From: a bacterium | GTDB taxonomy: Bacteria > Armatimonadota > Fimbriimonadia > Fimbriimonadales > Fimbriimonadaceae | Reading direction: 5' to 3' | NCBI GenBank assembly: GCA_013823945.1 | Contig: PNMZ01000012.1 | Coordinates: forward strand, 1-33,480 | DNA: 33,480 nt | Shown here: positions 3,164 to 12,528 of the stretch, one piece after another | Numbering within the stretch: the stretch's first letter is position 1 | Layout of the letters: the number at the start of each line of letters is the position of its first letter | The notes under the pieces: generated by a model | Database searches by the model: none | What the model was told of the DNA's origin: nothing | What the model saw: the letters and a program-made list of their open reading frames with translations, nothing else | Translations under genes and position numbers: made by a program

Positions 3164-5143
3164 TCACTTAAGCGTTGTCCCCCAGGCTTTGCCGACAAGA
3201 TCACCTTTGACCTCCTTACCGTCCAGCATGTACCGAGCTTGCTGAGCATAAGCATAGGAGTTCATCCAACTATCCTTGTTACTCTTGTAACTCCAATGCC
3301 AATCCAACGGAATCGCCAAAATAATCGTCTCACCCGAAGCCATCGTCGGCCCCGCAAAGGATCGTTGGAACAAATCTGCATATTGAGGACTCGTCCCCAA
3401 CAACGACGCGTTGTGCCAAATGCAGCCCACCTTGAGATCAATCACCGGACCCGCCTGTCGATAATCGGCTGGCAGCCCCGCTACCTGGCTCGCCCTCACC
3501 CGGACATAAGCCAAACCCGGCCGAACTGCGAAGTCGGGGTCAGGCGCCAATCCCATTAACTGACTCGAACTTTCCGAAAGATAAGACTGCTTTGAAATCT
3601 CAGATTCGATCACTCCACGCAAATGACCAGACAGAGCTAATCGAGTCTTAGGATCTTTCACATCCAAATCGTCAAGAATCTTAGCCGCAACATAGTCTTT
3701 GCCCTTCGATACATATCTGGGTAAATAATCAACCGCCTGACCTGGAGCTAAATACACATCCGTCGCCTTGTTCCAAGTTTTGACCGCTTGATCGTTAGAT
3801 ATTCCAAGACCTTGCGCGGAGGCCCTATACAAATTGTAGATCAGAATCTGAGCACCTTTCTGTGGACCTGTGATAAGCTGCTGGAGTCCTATTTTGATAA
3901 AATCTAGAACCGTTGCAACGGCCTTAAACACCTTCTTATACCAAGGGTCATCCTTCTTCGGTTCACTCGGCGGCAGAAACACCTTATCCCCAACCGCCGG
4001 AGCCTTCCCAATGATCTCAGTTACATTCCCTTCAATCTTCGCATCCAGCTTTCGCCCCACAACGAAACGATACTGATCAAAGGTATCCCCCAAATAAGCC
4101 GGTTCCCATCCAATCAGCTCAACCGTATAACTCAACTTTTTCTCCGGACCAGAATTGTTTGGCTGAACCACCTGCACGGCTTGCTTGGTCAACTTTATCT
4201 GCCCCGAAGGCATCGCTGCCAAATCTCCCTGCGGAGTCAAACACACCACCCGAGCCACAAAAACCGTCGGATATTTTTGCGTTGCTAAATCCTTCGCCGG
4301 CAAAGCAATCTTTCCCCCCGTCACCTCGCGCCAAACCACTTCGTTCTTGATGTTCCCAAAAAACGACCAGGCTGGATCAAACGAATCACGAGCAATTTGA
4401 AGCCAAACCTTAGACCCGCTCGGCAATCCCGTAAACCGAAAATTCATCGGCAAACTAGCATCACTAAAAGTTCTCTCCATCCCCCATGTCGCAGGAAACT
4501 CAGGCGTACCTGCCTGCGTCTCAATCTCAATTCCTGGAGCCGCACCAGAAGGTTTCGGCTCACCATATTGAAAAACCACCCAATTGCTCGCTCCCCCATC
4601 ATCCGCCACCAACTGAGCCGTGTAATTCAAAGTGCCTGATTTTTCAATCTCGGCCAATGCATCCTTCAAATTCTGGGCGTGCACCGCAGCAGAAATCCCC
4701 GGTGCCGCAGAACTCCCGCCGCCCAACGTCACCAACTTCGTCGGCCAAGGCACAAAATCTTTCAGCTTCACATCAAATCCATTCGCGGGAACCGTGGAAA
4801 TCGGAATACTCGCAACTAATCGTCCGACCTTTGTCATCGGGTTCTTAGGAGCCTCCGGACGAGAACCCGGTGCACCAGCTTCCCGATCAGGTGTCCCAAA
4901 TCCCCAGATATTCAACTTCATCCCAACCCGACCTTCCCGCGCTACTGGTTGAATCTGAAAATTGATCTTCCCCTCCGACCGCCAATTAACAACTTTCGTT
5001 GCGCTCGCAATCGAATCAAGCCGCGCCGTCCCCTCACTCCCTCTCCCTTGAGCCGCTATCACATCGCGAATACGCAACCCAAATTCTGCCTGACCTAAGC
5101 CCATAAAACTCAAACCAACAACCAACACCACAAATCTGCGCAT
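3164..5143 (-). CDS. Secreted protein of unknown function, 659 residues
   Basis: No family is recognised. The N-terminus has two arginines, a hydrophobic core and an AxA-like end (LSFMGLGQA at 11-19), so it is a likely Sec signal peptide with export to the cell surface or periplasm. The rest is soluble and mixed alpha/beta. It includes a Pro/Ala/Gly-rich stretch near 85-100 and a region around 390-430 with repeated K, F and I that could be an amphipathic helix. The C-terminal 100 residues are rich in Trp and Tyr. It lies 52 nt upstream of comEB on the same strand, so co-transcription is possible. A promoter-like pair sits immediately upstream (see 5150-5179), suggesting a leaderless start at ATG 5143. 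Confidence 0.75.
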   Translation of the reverse strand: MRRFVVLVVGLSFMGLGQAEFGLRIRDVIAAQGRGSEGTARLDSIASATKVVNWRSEGKINFQIQPVAREGRVGMKLNIWGFGTPDREAGAPGSRPEAPKNPMTKVGRLVASIPISTVPANGFDVKLKDFVPWPTKLVTLGGGSSAAPGISAAVHAQNLKDALAEIEKSGTLNYTAQLVADDGGASNWVVFQYGEPKPSGAAPGIEIETQAGTPEFPATWGMERTFSDASLPMNFRFTGLPSGSKVWLQIARDSFDPAWSFFGNIKNEVVWREVTGGKIALPAKDLATQKYPTVFVARVVCLTPQGDLAAMPSGQIKLTKQAVQVVQPNNSGPEKKLSYTVELIGWEPAYLGDTFDQYRFVVGRKLDAKIEGNVTEIIGKAPAVGDKVFLPPSEPKKDDPWYKKVFKAVATVLDFIKIGLQQLITGPQKGAQILIYNLYRASAQGLGISNDQAVKTWNKATDVYLAPGQAVDYLPRYVSKGKDYVAAKILDDLDVKDPKTRLALSGHLRGVIESEISKQSYLSESSSQLMGLAPDPDFAVRPGLAYVRVRASQVAGLPADYRQAGPVIDLKVGCIWHNASLLGTSPQYADLFQRSFAGPTMASGETIILAIPLDWHWSYKSNKDSWMNSYAYAQQARYMLDGKEVKGDLVGKAWGTTLK

Positions 5144-5293: not shown

Positions 5294-6160
5294 GTGATTA
5301 CACTTATTCCAGAAACTTCTCAACCAGAAATCGACTTTATCAAAACCCACGCTAACACATCCAGATTCACCATTTGCGACTTCCATCCAAAAAATCTTGA
5401 GAATATTGCGACCCCAACAGTCTACGGATGGTCTTACGACGGAATTGATGTCGTTGATCACCACGCACCCGATCGAAGGTTTCAAAAGCCTATCTCCTCT
5501 GGCCCACTCGCGATCGAATATCTCAAGCATCATTCAACTGCTCAAGAAGCCATCATTAACCACACAGATACCGACAGCATCATCTCCTCCGGCATCGTCA
5601 CAGGTCTGCTTCCACCACTTGAAGTACTCGCAGACGCGTGTATCGCCGCAGACCATACCGGCGAAGAAAATGAAATAGCAGACTTCATTCAAGAGCTAGA
5701 AGACAAGCGAGATTTCGATCTTGGTATCAACATCATCTCCGCTTTTTTGGACAATAAACCGCTTCCCCAAATTGCTCTAGAAGCTCGCGAAATTCGCAAA
5801 CGACAGCGAGAAATCGCCTTCGAATTTGCTTCAAATGCGAAAATCCAAGGGCCAATCGCGTCAATTGTCACCACTGAGACAATAGATAGCGTCCTCCTTG
5901 TTCCGTTCCTACCAGAAACACAAATTATCGTCTTAACTATGCCGTTTCGTGGAGATTCAAAACGTGCCGAAGTCAAACTGCGGCTCGGGCGTCAAGCTCA
6001 TACAGAAATGTCACTGCAAAATCTCAATATCCAAAGGTTCCTCAAAACTTACGGAGGACGATGGAACGCAGGCTCGAATCGCCGAGGCGGAGGAATTGAT
6101 CTCACTCCTGCCGACGCGGAGCTATTCGTCGTCACAAATCTGTTAAATCAATTCGCTTAA
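5294..6160 (+). CDS. DHH-like phosphoesterase-family protein with unusual motif order
   Basis: 288 residues, soluble, no signal peptide. Visible motifs are a possible metal-site Asp in FTICDFHP (Asp29), then VDHHAPDRRF (DHH at 55-57), then NHTDTDSIISSG (89-100), then AADHTGE (Asp120, His121). The C-terminal YGGRWNAGSNRRGGG segment resembles the glycine-rich DHHA1 substrate-binding region. In classical DHH proteins the HxxPDxDS-type motif precedes DHH; here it follows, so this may be a rearranged relative. Activity on a phosphodiester or pyrophosphate substrate is inferred only. GTG at 5294 is the only usual start after the in-frame stop TGA at 5267; TATCAT lies 7 nt before it. Its TAA overlaps the stop of the convergent reductase gene by 4 nt. 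Confidence 0.65.
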   Translation: MITLIPETSQPEIDFIKTHANTSRFTICDFHPKNLENIATPTVYGWSYDGIDVVDHHAPDRRFQKPISSGPLAIEYLKHHSTAQEAIINHTDTDSIISSGIVTGLLPPLEVLADACIAADHTGEENEIADFIQELEDKRDFDLGINIISAFLDNKPLPQIALEAREIRKRQREIAFEFASNAKIQGPIASIVTTETIDSVLLVPFLPETQIIVLTMPFRGDSKRAEVKLRLGRQAHTEMSLQNLNIQRFLKTYGGRWNAGSNRRGGGIDLTPADAELFVVTNLLNQFA

Positions 6161-7527: not shown

Positions 7528-10500
7528 ATGGGAATCGTGCGCTGGCTAACAACTATCTTCCTGGGCATTCTCATCATAACAATTGCTCAAGCCCAAACAT
7601 CTTGGGGACTTCCAATACCCGAAGTCACAACAACACCCGGCAAGGCGAAAATCACCGTAAGCTGGAATTCTGTACACCCCAACGCACACTACATCGTTTA
7701 TCGAAACGGACTCAACGACTACCAACACATCGTCTATTCAGGTTCGCAAGCAGGATCGTTCGATGATACATCTTTAATTAATGGCAACCCGTACAACTAT
7801 CGTGTATTCGCCTATATCCCATTCCAGTCCCCAAGCTCTGAGTCAGCATGGATTACCGCTTTCACCAACCTCAATGCCCCAGCTCACGCCTGGATCGAAC
7901 GAGGGCCAGGAAACTCGTACGTTGCAAAATGGCAACCCGTCGCGTGGGCTGATGAATACGAACTCCAATTCGGCACATCAACACCAAACTCCACCCTGAT
8001 CATTACCAATCTAACTCAGTTCCCTCTCGGAACCTTTGCACCCGGATCCGCAAACGGCGTTATTCGGGTCTTCGCAAAAAACAATGCGGGCTACAGTGCC
8101 TCCTCAAATTGGGCCTACATGAGCGGAGGCACAACCCAATCACCCATCGAACTCCCTCCCCCTCCATTTATCCCGTCCCGAGTCACCCACCCCTTCCGAC
8201 CACACCGTAACGACCCTATTCATGGTGGCCTCCCGGCAGAAGAACCTGGATTCAATCCTATTCATCTCCTCCCTTTTGGGCCGCTACTCACGGGAGACCC
8301 GGTCGACCTCGCCACTGGTCACAACACCTTTAATCCCAGCCCAGACCTCTCTGTCTACAATCCCAACGGCGTTCATGCAGTTTTCAAGCGCGCTTACTCC
8401 TCAGCCCTAGCCTCAAGCACCCAATCTTCCACTCCCGGTTTGACCAGTGGCTGGTCACATAACTACGATATCACCCTCCAAACCATAAACAATACCGATC
8501 AATGGGAACCTATTATTCTCCGCTATCCCCAAGGCGCGAAAGTCGTCTTCACACCCATTCTTAATGCCGGAATACCAACCGGAGAATTCACTTCTCCAGC
8601 CGGGACGCCTCTGATCCTCACCGGAACCCCCGGCGCAACCCTCAACCAATGGACAAACCTATCTCTCCTTCATCAAGACCGAACGCGATGGAATTTCTCC
8701 GCCTCAACTAACGGAGTCCATACCCTCGCCAGCATTAAGAATTCCCTCGGACAAGGCATCTCATTCACCTATATAAGTGACCAAAAGCTCTCGGTAATCC
8801 GCGACTTCGCATCCCAAACGACGCTCCTCCAGTGTAACTACGGAACCAACGATCTCATCGAGTCCGTCTCAGATCGTTACAACCGCCGGGTGTACTTCAC
8901 CTACGAGTCAGGGTTCGCGTCAGGTGGGCTACCTGGGGTTCACCTTGCTGCTCGAACTCAAATCGTCGACGTCACAACGCCAAGGGCCAGTGCGCCCATT
9001 CGCCAACGCTTCTCGTACCAATCTGGCCCAAATGGTGGAGCTCTCCTCAAAGAAATCCGGGTTATCAGTCCAAATCAGCCCGACCGAGTCGGCACCATCA
9101 CATGGGCGACCCACCCCATCCTCGGGACACCCGTCGTCTCTCATACCACCGACGGAAATGGACACATTAACGCCTTCACTTATCTCACCAATGCCACTAA
9201 AGTTGAGGTCAAGTCAAACACCGGAACTGTAATCTCCCACTACGAACAAGGATTCGACACCTTGCTCCGAGGAACAACCCACAAGGATGCATCCGGGTTC
9301 ATCTCTGTAAACAATTTCAACGACCCCGCAAACCCCCATCTCCCATCCAGCCACTTCGATCAAGTTGGCCGACTCACACTTTACACCTATGATCAATTTG
9401 GCAATCTCACCTCAACAACAAAACCAAATGGCCTCACGACAACTAACTCATACGACTACTCCGTGTTCCCGGTGGGCCGACTCATTGCAAACACGATCGG
9501 CACAAACCAAGTTCTGTCATACAGTTATTTCGAGCCATCAGGTCTGATACAGTCAATAACAACTCCAAACCCTGCCATATCAGGCACTGTCTCCACTAAC
9601 TACACCTACGATAGTCTCGGCAATCTCACATCAGTCACCAAGCCAGGTTTCACCATAGGAACAACGGTGACGGAGACGTATAACTACACCACCGACGGCA
9701 CTTACACGCAATCTGCAGCCGTCGGCCAGCCGCTCACCTACACGAATGGACTCGGTAAAGTTCAACGATTCAGATACACCGTCCAAGGCCTGGTTTCTCA
9801 GTCCGCAGACGCCCTCGGCAATACGACATCCAACACCTACAATATTGCCAATCAGCTCGTCTCGCAAACTCTCCCCCCCGCAAGCTTTGGCGCAAATCCA
9901 TATGTTTCATGGAACGAATACGCTTTTCCCGGCAGCCAAATCATGTCCTCGGGAACAACCATTGGCGCGATCCAAATCCCATTTCTAACCACCCTCTATA
10001 CCTATGGAGGCGAAGGTGAACTCCTCGCAACCGCCAGCGGATCAAATAGCCGAACATCGGTCTTCGACCCTTCATACCGAATCACCGCATCAACTGATGC
10101 CGCTGGCCGGACAACTACAATCACATACAACCCACGCGGTCTCCCTCATGTCGTCACCGATCCCCTGGGCCAATCAAAAACTTTCGCCAGCTACTCATCT
10201 ACCGGCCAACCCACCCAAATCATTCACCCCGGTGGGAAAGTCCAAAACCTCAGCTACCACGCCGTAACCGACGAGCTACTGAGCCACACATTCCCGAGCG
10301 ATCCCGCCGGCACAACCACCTACACTTATGACTCCGAAGGAAGAGTTACCTCTGAAGCAAACCCTGAAAGCACCATCTCCACTGTCTATGGCCCCGCCGG
10401 AACCATCGACTCCCAAACCGTAACCCACACCGGCGCCTCCGCCAAGGCAATTCAATTTGCCTACACCCCGAATGCCGCCCTCGCTTCGTTTACAACCTTT

Positions 10501-12528
10501 GCCGGAACCCAATCATTCAACTACGACAACGCGGGCCGAGTTACGAGCCTCACAAATCCGTACTCCGAAACAACAACTTACACCTACCTCGACAACAATT
10601 GGCTCAACATGGTCACCGCCCACAACGGGGCCAAGTCAATTTACACTTATGACGCCCTCGGGCGCCGTACCCTCGTCGAAAATCGACTCGCTAACAATAC
10701 GCTCATTTCCAGCTATTCAATACCAAGCTACTCCACTTCGAACAACCCAACATCTATTGTCTCAAACGTTCCTGGCTACGCCGCCCATACAGGAACCGTT
10801 CATTTCCAATTCGATTCCGAAAACCGCATCTCTCAAGAATCAGGCACGACCGTCGGCGGATTCACCAGCAATTACACCCACGACCTCGCCGGAAATCCAA
10901 CCCAATTTGCCAACGTCACCCGCGCCTACAACACTGTCGGGCAACGCACAAATCCAGGCTACACCTATCTCGCCAACGGCACTCCATCCCTTCACCGAAA
11001 CATTACATTCCAATCAAACGCGCAACGCCATATCACTGCAATCGGAACTCTCACCGCGGGCTATCAAGCCAACGGCATCCGATCGTTCAAACGTGCCGGT
11101 ACCGCCGCCAAGCGCTACTACCTCAACATCGGAAGCTCTCCCATAATTGAGTTCAACAGCTCCAACTCAATCCTCGCCTACAACACATTCGGACCAGACG
11201 GTCTCGTCTCCCGCAGGGCCGGAACAACTTCAACCTACTACAAATTCAATATCCAAGGTGGCACCGCCCAAAGGCTCTCCTCCACAGGAGCCGTCAGTTC
11301 GCGGCATGCGTACAGCGCTTACGGAACACCAATCAACTCCAGCTACCCGACCGATCCCTGGATCAATTTCAAAGCCCAATACGGCTATTACCGCGACTGG
11401 GAGAACAGTATCCTCCTCGCGACTCACCGCTACTACGACCCCGAAGAAGGCACTTGGCTCGCAACCGACCCCATCGGCTTTCATGGCGGACCAAACCTCT
11501 ACCAATACTGCCTCGGCAACCCCATCAGCTACCGCGACCCCAATGGTCAATCACCTCAATTTGAGTACGCAGTTGCCAGCTTCTTCCAAGGAGTTGGCGA
11601 CTCTTTTTCTTTCGGCCTAACACGCGCAATCAATGAGCAATCCGGAGCATTCAGTGTCGTAGACCCGACATCAAACGCATACAAAATCGGTGAAGGAACT
11701 GGTGACCTCCTCGGCTATATCTCTGGTAAAGCCGGAATCGATATCGGAGCAAAGGTAACAAAAAACATATGGGGGAAAATCTCTCAAAAATTCCTCTCCA
11801 AAGCGTCAGGATGCTTCACAGCCGATACTCAAATCCTACTCGCCGACGGCACGACCAAACCCATATCGCGCCTCCAAATCGGCGATCTGATTCGCACGCG
11901 CAACCGACTCGGCGATGAAGACGACCCAGACAGCGTCAGCGTTGTCACCCAACTCTTCACCCTCACCAAACCCGAGATACTCACCCTATCCCTCTCCAAC
12001 GGCTCAACTCTTAACACAACCCCAGAACACCCGTTCTATATCAAAACTGCCGGGTTCATACCCGCCGGAGAAATAAAACCCGGCGACCAAATCGCTACCG
12101 ACTCCAACAACTTCCTCAGAGTCACAAAAACAACCCTCAAAAAAGCACCAACCCAGGTCTACAACTTCGAAGTCCTCGGTACACACACCTACTTCGTCAA
12201 AGCCGGAAACCAATTCGCATGGGTTCACAACCAATGCCGTGAATGGCACCATACCATTCCAAGAATGATCCAAGGAATGGTCAAAGGACGTCTGGACGAA
12301 TTTGACGAAGTCATCAGTGTTCCTTGGTCATGGCATCGCGGAAAGGGGGGACTCCATTCAGGAGAAGGATTCCGAAGTCCCATAACAGGCGAAGCTTACG
12401 GAGGCGGCGCATATAATGGAGAATGGATGAGAAGGTTGTTCCAACTAAAGAAGGATGGCAATTTTGATCTAGATGACATTCGGCATGTTTACAAGTCAAT
12501 GATGAAAGATCTTGAATGGGACGACTAA
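7528..12528 (+). CDS. Secreted RHS/YD-repeat polymorphic toxin with Hint autoprocessing domain and C-terminal HH-motif toxin tip
   Basis: 1666 residues. A signal peptide (IVRWLTTIFLGILIITIAQA) is followed by two Fn3-like beta segments (about 28-200) and a Pro-rich linker. The GDPVDLATG entry motif is near 256, then many YD repeats such as YTYDSLGNLTSVTKPG and YTYDALGRRT. The RHS core ends RYYDPEEGTWLATDPIGF...NPISYRDPNG at about 1301-1340. After a spacer, a Hint domain runs from GCFTADTQILLADG (Cys1429) through TTPEHPFYI to a terminal His1567-Asn1568, with Cys1570 two residues on. Hint domains self-cleave, which would release the last 97 residues. That tip has WHHTIP, then WHRGKGGLHSG and GGAYNGEWMRRLF, resembling HH-type toxin tips such as the myxobacterial SitA6 group (from memory). 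Its target is unknown. No clear ribosome binding site is seen; the 84 bp upstream is very AT-rich. Confidence 0.9.
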   Translation: MGIVRWLTTIFLGILIITIAQAQTSWGLPIPEVTTTPGKAKITVSWNSVHPNAHYIVYRNGLNDYQHIVYSGSQAGSFDDTSLINGNPYNYRVFAYIPFQSPSSESAWITAFTNLNAPAHAWIERGPGNSYVAKWQPVAWADEYELQFGTSTPNSTLIITNLTQFPLGTFAPGSANGVIRVFAKNNAGYSASSNWAYMSGGTTQSPIELPPPPFIPSRVTHPFRPHRNDPIHGGLPAEEPGFNPIHLLPFGPLLTGDPVDLATGHNTFNPSPDLSVYNPNGVHAVFKRAYSSALASSTQSSTPGLTSGWSHNYDITLQTINNTDQWEPIILRYPQGAKVVFTPILNAGIPTGEFTSPAGTPLILTGTPGATLNQWTNLSLLHQDRTRWNFSASTNGVHTLASIKNSLGQGISFTYISDQKLSVIRDFASQTTLLQCNYGTNDLIESVSDRYNRRVYFTYESGFASGGLPGVHLAARTQIVDVTTPRASAPIRQRFSYQSGPNGGALLKEIRVISPNQPDRVGTITWATHPILGTPVVSHTTDGNGHINAFTYLTNATKVEVKSNTGTVISHYEQGFDTLLRGTTHKDASGFISVNNFNDPANPHLPSSHFDQVGRLTLYTYDQFGNLTSTTKPNGLTTTNSYDYSVFPVGRLIANTIGTNQVLSYSYFEPSGLIQSITTPNPAISGTVSTNYTYDSLGNLTSVTKPGFTIGTTVTETYNYTTDGTYTQSAAVGQPLTYTNGLGKVQRFRYTVQGLVSQSADALGNTTSNTYNIANQLVSQTLPPASFGANPYVSWNEYAFPGSQIMSSGTTIGAIQIPFLTTLYTYGGEGELLATASGSNSRTSVFDPSYRITASTDAAGRTTTITYNPRGLPHVVTDPLGQSKTFASYSSTGQPTQIIHPGGKVQNLSYHAVTDELLSHTFPSDPAGTTTYTYDSEGRVTSEANPESTISTVYGPAGTIDSQTVTHTGASAKAIQFAYTPNAALASFTTFAGTQSFNYDNAGRVTSLTNPYSETTTYTYLDNNWLNMVTAHNGAKSIYTYDALGRRTLVENRLANNTLISSYSIPSYSTSNNPTSIVSNVPGYAAHTGTVHFQFDSENRISQESGTTVGGFTSNYTHDLAGNPTQFANVTRAYNTVGQRTNPGYTYLANGTPSLHRNITFQSNAQRHITAIGTLTAGYQANGIRSFKRAGTAAKRYYLNIGSSPIIEFNSSNSILAYNTFGPDGLVSRRAGTTSTYYKFNIQGGTAQRLSSTGAVSSRHAYSAYGTPINSSYPTDPWINFKAQYGYYRDWENSILLATHRYYDPEEGTWLATDPIGFHGGPNLYQYCLGNPISYRDPNGQSPQFEYAVASFFQGVGDSFSFGLTRAINEQSGAFSVVDPTSNAYKIGEGTGDLLGYISGKAGIDIGAKVTKNIWGKISQKFLSKASGCFTADTQILLADGTTKPISRLQIGDLIRTRNRLGDEDDPDSVSVVTQLFTLTKPEILTLSLSNGSTLNTTPEHPFYIKTAGFIPAGEIKPGDQIATDSNNFLRVTKTTLKKAPTQVYNFEVLGTHTYFVKAGNQFAWVHNQCREWHHTIPRMIQGMVKGRLDEFDEVISVPWSWHRGKGGLHSGEGFRSPITGEAYGGGAYNGEWMRRLFQLKKDGNFDLDDIRHVYKSMMKDLEWDD

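Follow-up and report, generated by a model that had tools for sequence, protein, structure and literature searches.

The window, a stretch of DNA of 33,480 nucleotides, contains at 5294..6160 (+) a gene for a protein of 288 residues in which the familiar active site of the DHH phosphoesterases appears to be built in a new chain order. The protein shares the motif II-III region with these enzymes, has a DHHA1 fold and carries a motif I-like sequence behind the DHH, and the proposed ligands are invariant in all aligned members of its family. With a probability of about 0.78, we regard it as a DHH-DHHA1 phosphoesterase relative with the motif order II-III-I-IV, whose displaced unit is proposed to lie in its original place in the sheet and whose two-metal site would act on a small nucleotide.

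If true, a catalytic beta-alpha unit has been relocated inside the domain while its metal ligands were kept. This would be a non-circular permutation, of a kind that to our knowledge is rare, and would show in a natural case how much reordering of its chain a two-metal enzyme tolerates. A likely chemistry would also be gained for an unannotated family, consisting of the window protein and 12 homologues, and perhaps for DUF6687. No description of a permuted DHH enzyme or of DUF6687 was found in a library of open-access papers, with few subscription papers and no bioRxiv. PMC7824862 and PMC2876114 deal with permutations of other proteins, and the main text of a survey of NrnB (PMC12709177) does not contain the string 'permut'.

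A thinly distributed gene family

The frame begins with GTG, and the same frame is used in the homologues. Judged by its retention there and by its invariant motif residues, it is a real gene. Its counterparts are 53% identical in a second genome of the genus and 39% identical in one of the family (matches in 3 of 61 genomes, counting its own), and it is present at 10 loci in genome_contigs, one of them the 53% homologue again. The titles of these loci are Fimbriimonadaceae, Acidobacteria, 'bacterium', Woesearchaeota, Desulfuromonadales, Jorgensenbacteria, Paceibacterota, Gemmatimonas, Bacteroidetes and Deltaproteobacteria. As the scan of genome_contigs used two short patterns derived from three close members, it favours near relatives. 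The 12 homologues that were aligned with the window protein range from Armatimonadota to Patescibacteria and Woesearchaeota. In the resulting count of 13 members, L002, the contig of L004, is included once, and L001, L014, L015 and L019-L027 are omitted as repeats of other loci. An unrooted maximum-likelihood tree of the 13 members places the four rows of the window's own family together across a branch with a support of 85/85.

Generally, the distribution looks thin and patchy. In the own phylum, 4 of 291 genomes carry the family, including that of the window. Samples of three other phyla, with 286, 45 and 247 genomes, revealed no new members: the matches were G295 and G768 in the first, G299 and G292 in the second and G291 in the third, and all of these except G768 were already known as members. 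G768, from Patescibacteria, was rejected, since its match over profile positions 5-108 is to an ordinary NrnA-type protein.

Common annotation resources do not recognize the protein. It has no Pfam match above the cut-off, with a single DUF1493 match below it (E 0.093), no family matched in NCBIfam, and comparisons with PDB sequences, phages and plasmids gave nothing usable. The same holds for L012 against plasmids, L009 against phages, all 13 members against PHROGs and PADLOC, and two scans of viral_contigs. Matches to Csx16 and a cyclase in PADLOC (E 0.012-0.046) were discarded as chance, and a match of the family profile to Lon protease (E 0.00038, residues 124-187) was dropped, as it was judged to reflect helix composition. 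Ordinary profile annotation misses the family, plausibly since such profiles presuppose the common order of the motifs.

Invariant residues and layout of the motifs

Residues D29, D55-H56-H57, S69, A73, N89-H90-T91-D92, D94, S95, A115, A119-D120-H121, G123, D130, R172, R230, R256, N258-A259-G260 and R264 are identical in all 13 members, and NHTDxDS is positioned behind the DHH in every one of them. Between H57 and D92, the alignment of the 13 members contains no invariant Asp or Glu. The original prediction had placed VDHH (54-57) ahead of HTDTDSIISSG (90-100), and had also named D29, D120 and H121. All of these are found at these residues of the 288-residue frame, with C28 before D29, N89 before H90 and A119 before D120, and the order is kept in 13 of 13 members.

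Motif II comprises the strand 25-28 and C28-D29-F30 (5366..5383, +), with D29 as the second-motif Asp according to its invariance and to hhalign. Behind the strand 51-54 follows motif III, V54-D55-H56-H57 (5453..5464, +), which is also detected by the canonical-DHH HMM described below. After the DHH, DSSP assigns a helix to residues 69-79 of the predicted model (5498..5530, +; SSG/T..LA..Y), which includes the invariant S69 and A73 and would be the counterpart of the post-motif III helix of NrnA and RecJ. The displaced motif I extends over 5549..5599 (+), with the strand 86-88, N89-H90-T91-D92-T93-D94-S95 and the helix 93-102; its assignment draws on invariance, the HMM, PF01368 and the model. 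At the end of the helix 110-122 lies A119-D120-H121-T122-G123 (5648..5662, +), with invariant A119, D120, H121 and G123. From its position and a resemblance by eye to the VADV.. of RecJ, this segment is probably motif IV; in hhalign, the stretch 105-180 that contains D120 has no profile match of its own. Sequence and model together thus suggest that the beta-alpha unit with motif I is placed between the post-DHH helix and the helix of the probable motif IV.

A linker helix (residues 159-180 by DSSP on the model; 5768..5833, +), with the invariant R172, connects the DHH domain to the DHHA1 domain (residues 183-288; 5840..6157, +). The latter is identified by VIA-align rows and by C-Ala domains among the Foldseek matches. 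It contains the invariant R230 (5981..5983, +) in K-L-R-L-G, a candidate for the phosphate-binding Arg of motif VI, and G254-G255-R256-W257-N258-A259-G260 (6053..6073, +), with R256, N258, A259 and G260 invariant, a candidate motif VII that may replace GGGH. The latter belongs to a C-terminal glycine segment, residues 254-267, with the sequence GGRWNAGSNRRGGG.

Profile comparisons place motif I behind motifs II and III

In hhalign, the native family profile was compared with a profile of 11 NrnA-type proteins, where its residues 5-63 align with NrnA 77-134, i.e. motifs II-III (E 5.3e-5). With RecJ (9 proteins), its residues 25-61 align with motifs II-III (E 7.1e-4). These native alignments cover motifs II-III only. 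A canonical-DHH HMM was built from 25 ordinary DHH domains, which remained of 27 canonical loci after the exclusion of L057, which had no frame that passed the filter, and of L043, whose chosen frame looked wrong; the DHH lies at about 115-117 of this HMM. It matches the II-III region above 3 bits in 12 of the 13 members, with no match in L016 and with motif III alone matched in L005, L006 and L011. Behind this region, motif I (HMM 18-56) is matched in six members (L003, L006, L009, L010, L012 and L013) at residues 84-117 of their own numbering, with low scores of 3.1-7.6 bits; in the window protein and the six other members, the HMM finds no motif I. In the printed alignments, the canonical motif I D-x-D falls onto D92-x-D94 of the window numbering. 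When residues 80-125 were shuffled (300 times per member), a motif I match of at least 3 bits, starting at HMM position 27 at most and ending at position 40 at least, was obtained once in 3,900 cases; since the members are related, this frequency cannot be read as a p-value of independent events.

PF01368 (gathering cut-off 28.1 bits) matches 8 of the 13 members, all below the cut-off and at best with 21.1 bits, and does not match the window protein. Among the ten members scanned for their best stretch (the window protein, L004 and L008 were left out), this is the motif I end of PF01368 in five and the II-III end in three, while two have no PF01368 match. The motif I stretch extends from position 2 or 3 to 26-50, and the E-values of all PF01368 matches range from 0.00041 to 0.19. 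Two NCBIfam models of RecJ match weakly, one in two members (best E 0.03) and the other in one (E 0.0027).

In all six members in which the profile matches both parts, II-III is followed by I, and the order I-II-III-IV was not encountered. Hence, the sequences are best read as II-III-I-IV, with the position of IV depending on the probable assignment of that motif. Of the two explanations offered by the original prediction, a permutation holds insofar as the HMM and PF01368 identify HxDxDS as a motif I displaced behind the DHH. It does not hold as a plain circular one: ADHxG (119-123), the best reading of motif IV, follows motif I, and a simple circular order II-III-IV-I therefore does not describe the family. 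The other explanation, a separate metal-site arrangement, is unlikely in view of the match of the segment to motif I in register in 6 of 13 members.

Rearranged family profiles

When residues 80-109 of the family profile were moved to the N-terminus, the hhalign score with NrnA rose to 56.5 (42.6 native) and that with RecJ to 44.6 (37.1 native). A full rotation at motif I gave 43.7 (NrnA, 42.6 native) and 36.6 (RecJ, 37.1 native), and moving the stretch 80-165 alone to the front left the score unchanged. For control, 258 segments of 30 residues were moved one by one, along with 100 column-shuffled segments. With RecJ, the maximum of 47.8 was reached by the segment starting at residue 79, while the 222 starts outside residues 60-95 gave at most 40.9 and the column-shuffled segments at most 39.4. 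Start 62 (residues 62-91), which contains neither D92 nor D94, also scored 45.0. With NrnA, start 115 was highest at 65.1, ahead of start 82 at 63.5, and 56.5 was reached by 10 of the 100 shuffled segments. The rearrangement test is thus largely specific for RecJ and non-specific for NrnA, so the claim of a displaced motif I rests on the HMM and on the RecJ comparison, including the caveat of start 62.

Predicted fold

The AlphaFold2 model, calculated with the window protein and 10 homologues, has a pLDDT of 95.0 and a pTM of 0.90. A Foldseek search of the PDB with the whole model returned 44 chains at E<=0.001. By title or known identity, 42 of these are DHH-type enzymes or C-Ala (DHHA1) domains of alanyl-tRNA synthetase; the remaining two belong to 6mtz, titled as an uncharacterised H. 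pylori protein. Among viral models, 17 matched at E<=0.001, and each of the seven with a functional name is a phosphohydrolase, phosphoesterase or NrnB. In VIA-align, the whole model reached Z-scores up to 11.8 (RecJ-Cdc45, 244 residues, rmsd 4.5). Many rows span the DHHA1 part alone (about 166-288; Z about 10, rmsd 2.5-2.9), such as NrnA 5j21 against residues 166-288 (Z 10.4, rmsd 2.5, 105 residues). A PDB family absent from these lists of fold matches is not thereby excluded. In agreement with the original prediction, the protein is a relative of DHH enzymes, given the mostly DHH-type and DHHA1 chains retrieved with the whole protein and the hhalign match of motifs II-III, and the glycine segment at its C-terminus, which had been called DHHA1-like, is part of a region that matches DHHA1 domains.

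When residues 1-158 were folded alone, the DHH part was again predicted with high confidence (pLDDT 95.5). Foldseek found no PDB match to it at E<=0.001, the best DHH row being 7bjq with an E-value of 0.43; the scores of the whole protein therefore owe much to DHHA1. The top 12 VIA-align rows of the DHH part, all DHH enzymes by title or known identity, have Z-scores of 4.2-5.5 over 120-125 residues (rmsd 3.8-4.1), below the Z of 8 under which VIA-align warns of common arrangements; the 13th row is the nitrogenase Fe protein with a Z of 3.2. Such a poor sequential alignment fits a rearranged chain, as would be expected, and is no positive proof of it.

The strand 86-88, the N-H-T-D-T-D turn and the helix 93-102 form in the model the strand-turn-helix expected of motif I. 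In the 12 rows of the DHH part, residue 1 of the model pairs with chain residue 28, 55-56, 66-67 or 103. This lies beyond motif I, which is at 35-37 in M. jannaschii RecJ2, at 45-47 in RecJ-Cdc45 and at about 79-83 in D. radiodurans RecJ; these motif positions are chain indices that may differ from the numbering of the entry. At least two of the 27 whole-protein rows that begin with residue 1 of the model (9r7o, from 13, and 8y30, from 83) are estimated to start before the motif I of the chain. The pairing of residue 1 after motif I is thus not universal among the VIA-align rows.

Proposed active site and alternative explanations

The protein is most likely a two-metal phosphoesterase for small nucleotides. 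The displaced motif I unit would pack at the same position of the sheet as in ordinary DHH members, so that D92 and D94 (motif I), D29 (II), D55-H56-H57 (III) and D120 (IV) could hold two divalent metal ions, probably Mn2+, which would activate a water molecule. The DHHA1 domain, through R230 and R256, may grip the phosphate of a small nucleotide that occupies the interdomain cleft; candidate substrates are pAp, short linear dinucleotides and related alarmone products. For PyapApase, a pAp phosphatase, PMC8268124 gives D10 and D12 (I), D59 (II), H78 (III) and D126 (IV) as predicted ligands of two metal ions, and R259, G285 and K287 as predicted to bind the substrate. That paper reports a strong impairment of the D77A and H79A mutants and next to no effect of H78A on activity. 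By analogy, D92, D94, D29, D55-H56-H57 and D120 would be the counterparts of the metal ligands, and on the side of DHHA1 the corresponding residues would be R230 and G255/R256; R230 may correspond to PyapApase R259 and NrnA R266 (PMC8268124). For the GGRWNAG segment, a role as motif VII is a candidate assignment.

The same observations could be explained in other ways. If the chain were fully circularly permuted (II-III-IV-I), another residue would serve as motif IV and ADH(120) would be part of a new element. Such a permutation requires motif I to lie behind motif III, as it does, D130 is invariant like D120, and motif IV has no profile assignment. Yet a whole rotation at motif I barely alters the scores, moving the stretch 80-165 in front changes nothing, and there is no motif IV candidate ahead of motif I, because no invariant Asp or Glu lies between H57 and D92; we consider a full circular permutation very improbable. 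A loss of motif I is also conceivable; the HTDTDS strand-turn-helix would then be an insertion of unrelated origin and provide a metal site of a new arrangement. The ordinary DHH enzymes read here lack a comparable unit at this location, and much of the gain with NrnA is owed to the removal of the segment as such, since copies with the shuffled segment reach a median of 50.4 compared with 42.6 for the native profile. This explanation is unlikely in view of the register shared with canonical motif I (HxDxD, S and a helix of small residues), found in 6 of 13 members compared with the single shuffled match, and of PF01368 itself placing its motif I end on the HTDTDS segment in half of the ten members scanned.

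Cdc45 is an inactive DHH relative and appears among the fold matches, and a protein of the DHH fold that is no longer an enzyme, e.g. a nucleotide-binding or structural subunit, would also suit a family as patchy as this one, with 4 of 291 genomes in its phylum. On the other hand, none of the proposed metal ligands varies among the 13 members, which come from distant phyla; a loss of catalysis is therefore unlikely as well, because this invariance is hard to explain otherwise.

Relation to known families and to DUF6687

With the DHH-DHHA1 phosphoesterases (NrnA/PAP phosphatase, RecJ, GdpP and CnpB), the permuted DHH-DHHA1 protein described here has in common the content of motifs I, II and III and a probable motif IV, as well as the linker helix, the DHHA1 domain and invariant Arg residues on the substrate side. 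It differs from them in the order of the motifs, which is II-III-I-IV in the family and I-II-III-IV in theirs, in having GGRWNAGS or close variants instead of GGGH, and in PF01368 scores that all remain under the gathering cut-off. PpaC, a family II pyrophosphatase of the DHH-DHHA2 type, has a motif I that resembles HxDxDS. It shares the DHH with the family but differs in motif order, and the C-terminal domain here is DHHA1-like and not DHHA2.

PF20392 (DUF6687, gathering cut-off 27 bits), a family of unknown function, matches two members in the region between the DHH and HTDxDS: L009 with 11.6 bits (profile 25-80, from the DHH to HTDxDS) and L012 with 18.1 bits, the best score (profile 37-82, from just after the DHH to HTDxDS). 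The window protein has no match to PF20392. Five DUF6687 proteins were retrieved from the phylum to which G298, the source of the Bacteroidetes locus L012, belongs, in a search of 198 genomes. By eye, L028-L031 contain VD, SHW or AHW, NHFDxDG and GDF in that order, and L032 lacks these motifs, so the order is present in four of the five Bacteroidota proteins read. DUF6687 thus has SHW or AHW where the window family has DHH, while the order is apparently alike. In hhalign, the family profile aligns with DUF6687 with a score of 25.9 (probability 3%, E 0.014); without L032 the score is 23.8, and the highest of 200 column shuffles reaches 24.1. The canonical-DHH HMM found no match above 2 bits in the DUF6687 proteins. 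In the own phylum, DUF6687 was found in 0 of 291 genomes, and as the control genomes also gave 0, absence is not implied. These data are suggestive of a permuted order shared with DUF6687, which we treat as a lead only. One ancient, non-circular transposition of the motif I unit may have founded a DHH branch comprising the window family and DUF6687, with a working two-metal site and a role in turning over nucleotide signals, which some members would share with HD_4 hydrolases; we put this forward tentatively and hold it to be somewhat less probable than an even chance. At four of the five DUF6687 loci (L029-L032), the gene is located between QueG-like and thioredoxin-reductase-like genes, identified by Pfam for L030 and by eye for the others.

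Gene neighbourhoods

The window gene has no adjacent partner on the same strand; of its two flanking genes, both on the opposite strand, one is unnamed and the other flavodoxin-like. Among the homologues, for which selected neighbours were compared with Pfam, L003:262-1482 (G023) continues in the same frame, uninterrupted by a stop codon, into an HD_4 domain (25.1 bits, below the cut-off of 27.2), followed by about 310 residues without a Pfam match; from the sequence, this is possibly a DHH-HD_4 fusion. In L005, the gene that immediately precedes the homologue, in the same orientation, is an HD_4 gene (L005:1945-2607, 71.8 bits). HD_4 includes guanosine-alarmone hydrolases, so these partners are weakly in line with a role in small-nucleotide turnover. 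The homologue of L008 comes after a calcineurin-like phosphoesterase gene and that of L007 after an inositol-monophosphatase-type gene (25.9 bits, under the cut-off of 27). By eye, the listed genes of the other nine members include no common neighbour of these kinds.

Near the homologue in L008, a gene for an OLD-like TOPRIM ATPase is followed by a further large gene (L008:4109-8025), an arrangement that looks defence-like. A role in defence, raised by this ATPase downstream of the homologue, was dismissed, as no repeat of the arrangement was seen by eye at other loci. In L006, the homologue has an N-terminal extension of about 190 residues (L006:5401-5976); its part 5431-5976 and the gene upstream of the homologue are both without a Pfam match. 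In the window itself, positions 3164-5143 (-) code for a protein of 659 residues that is probably secreted, judged by eye, and has no Pfam match, and positions 7528-12528 code for a protein of 1666 residues with RHS-type repeats and, near its C-terminus, a Hint/intein-like segment, both recognized by eye.
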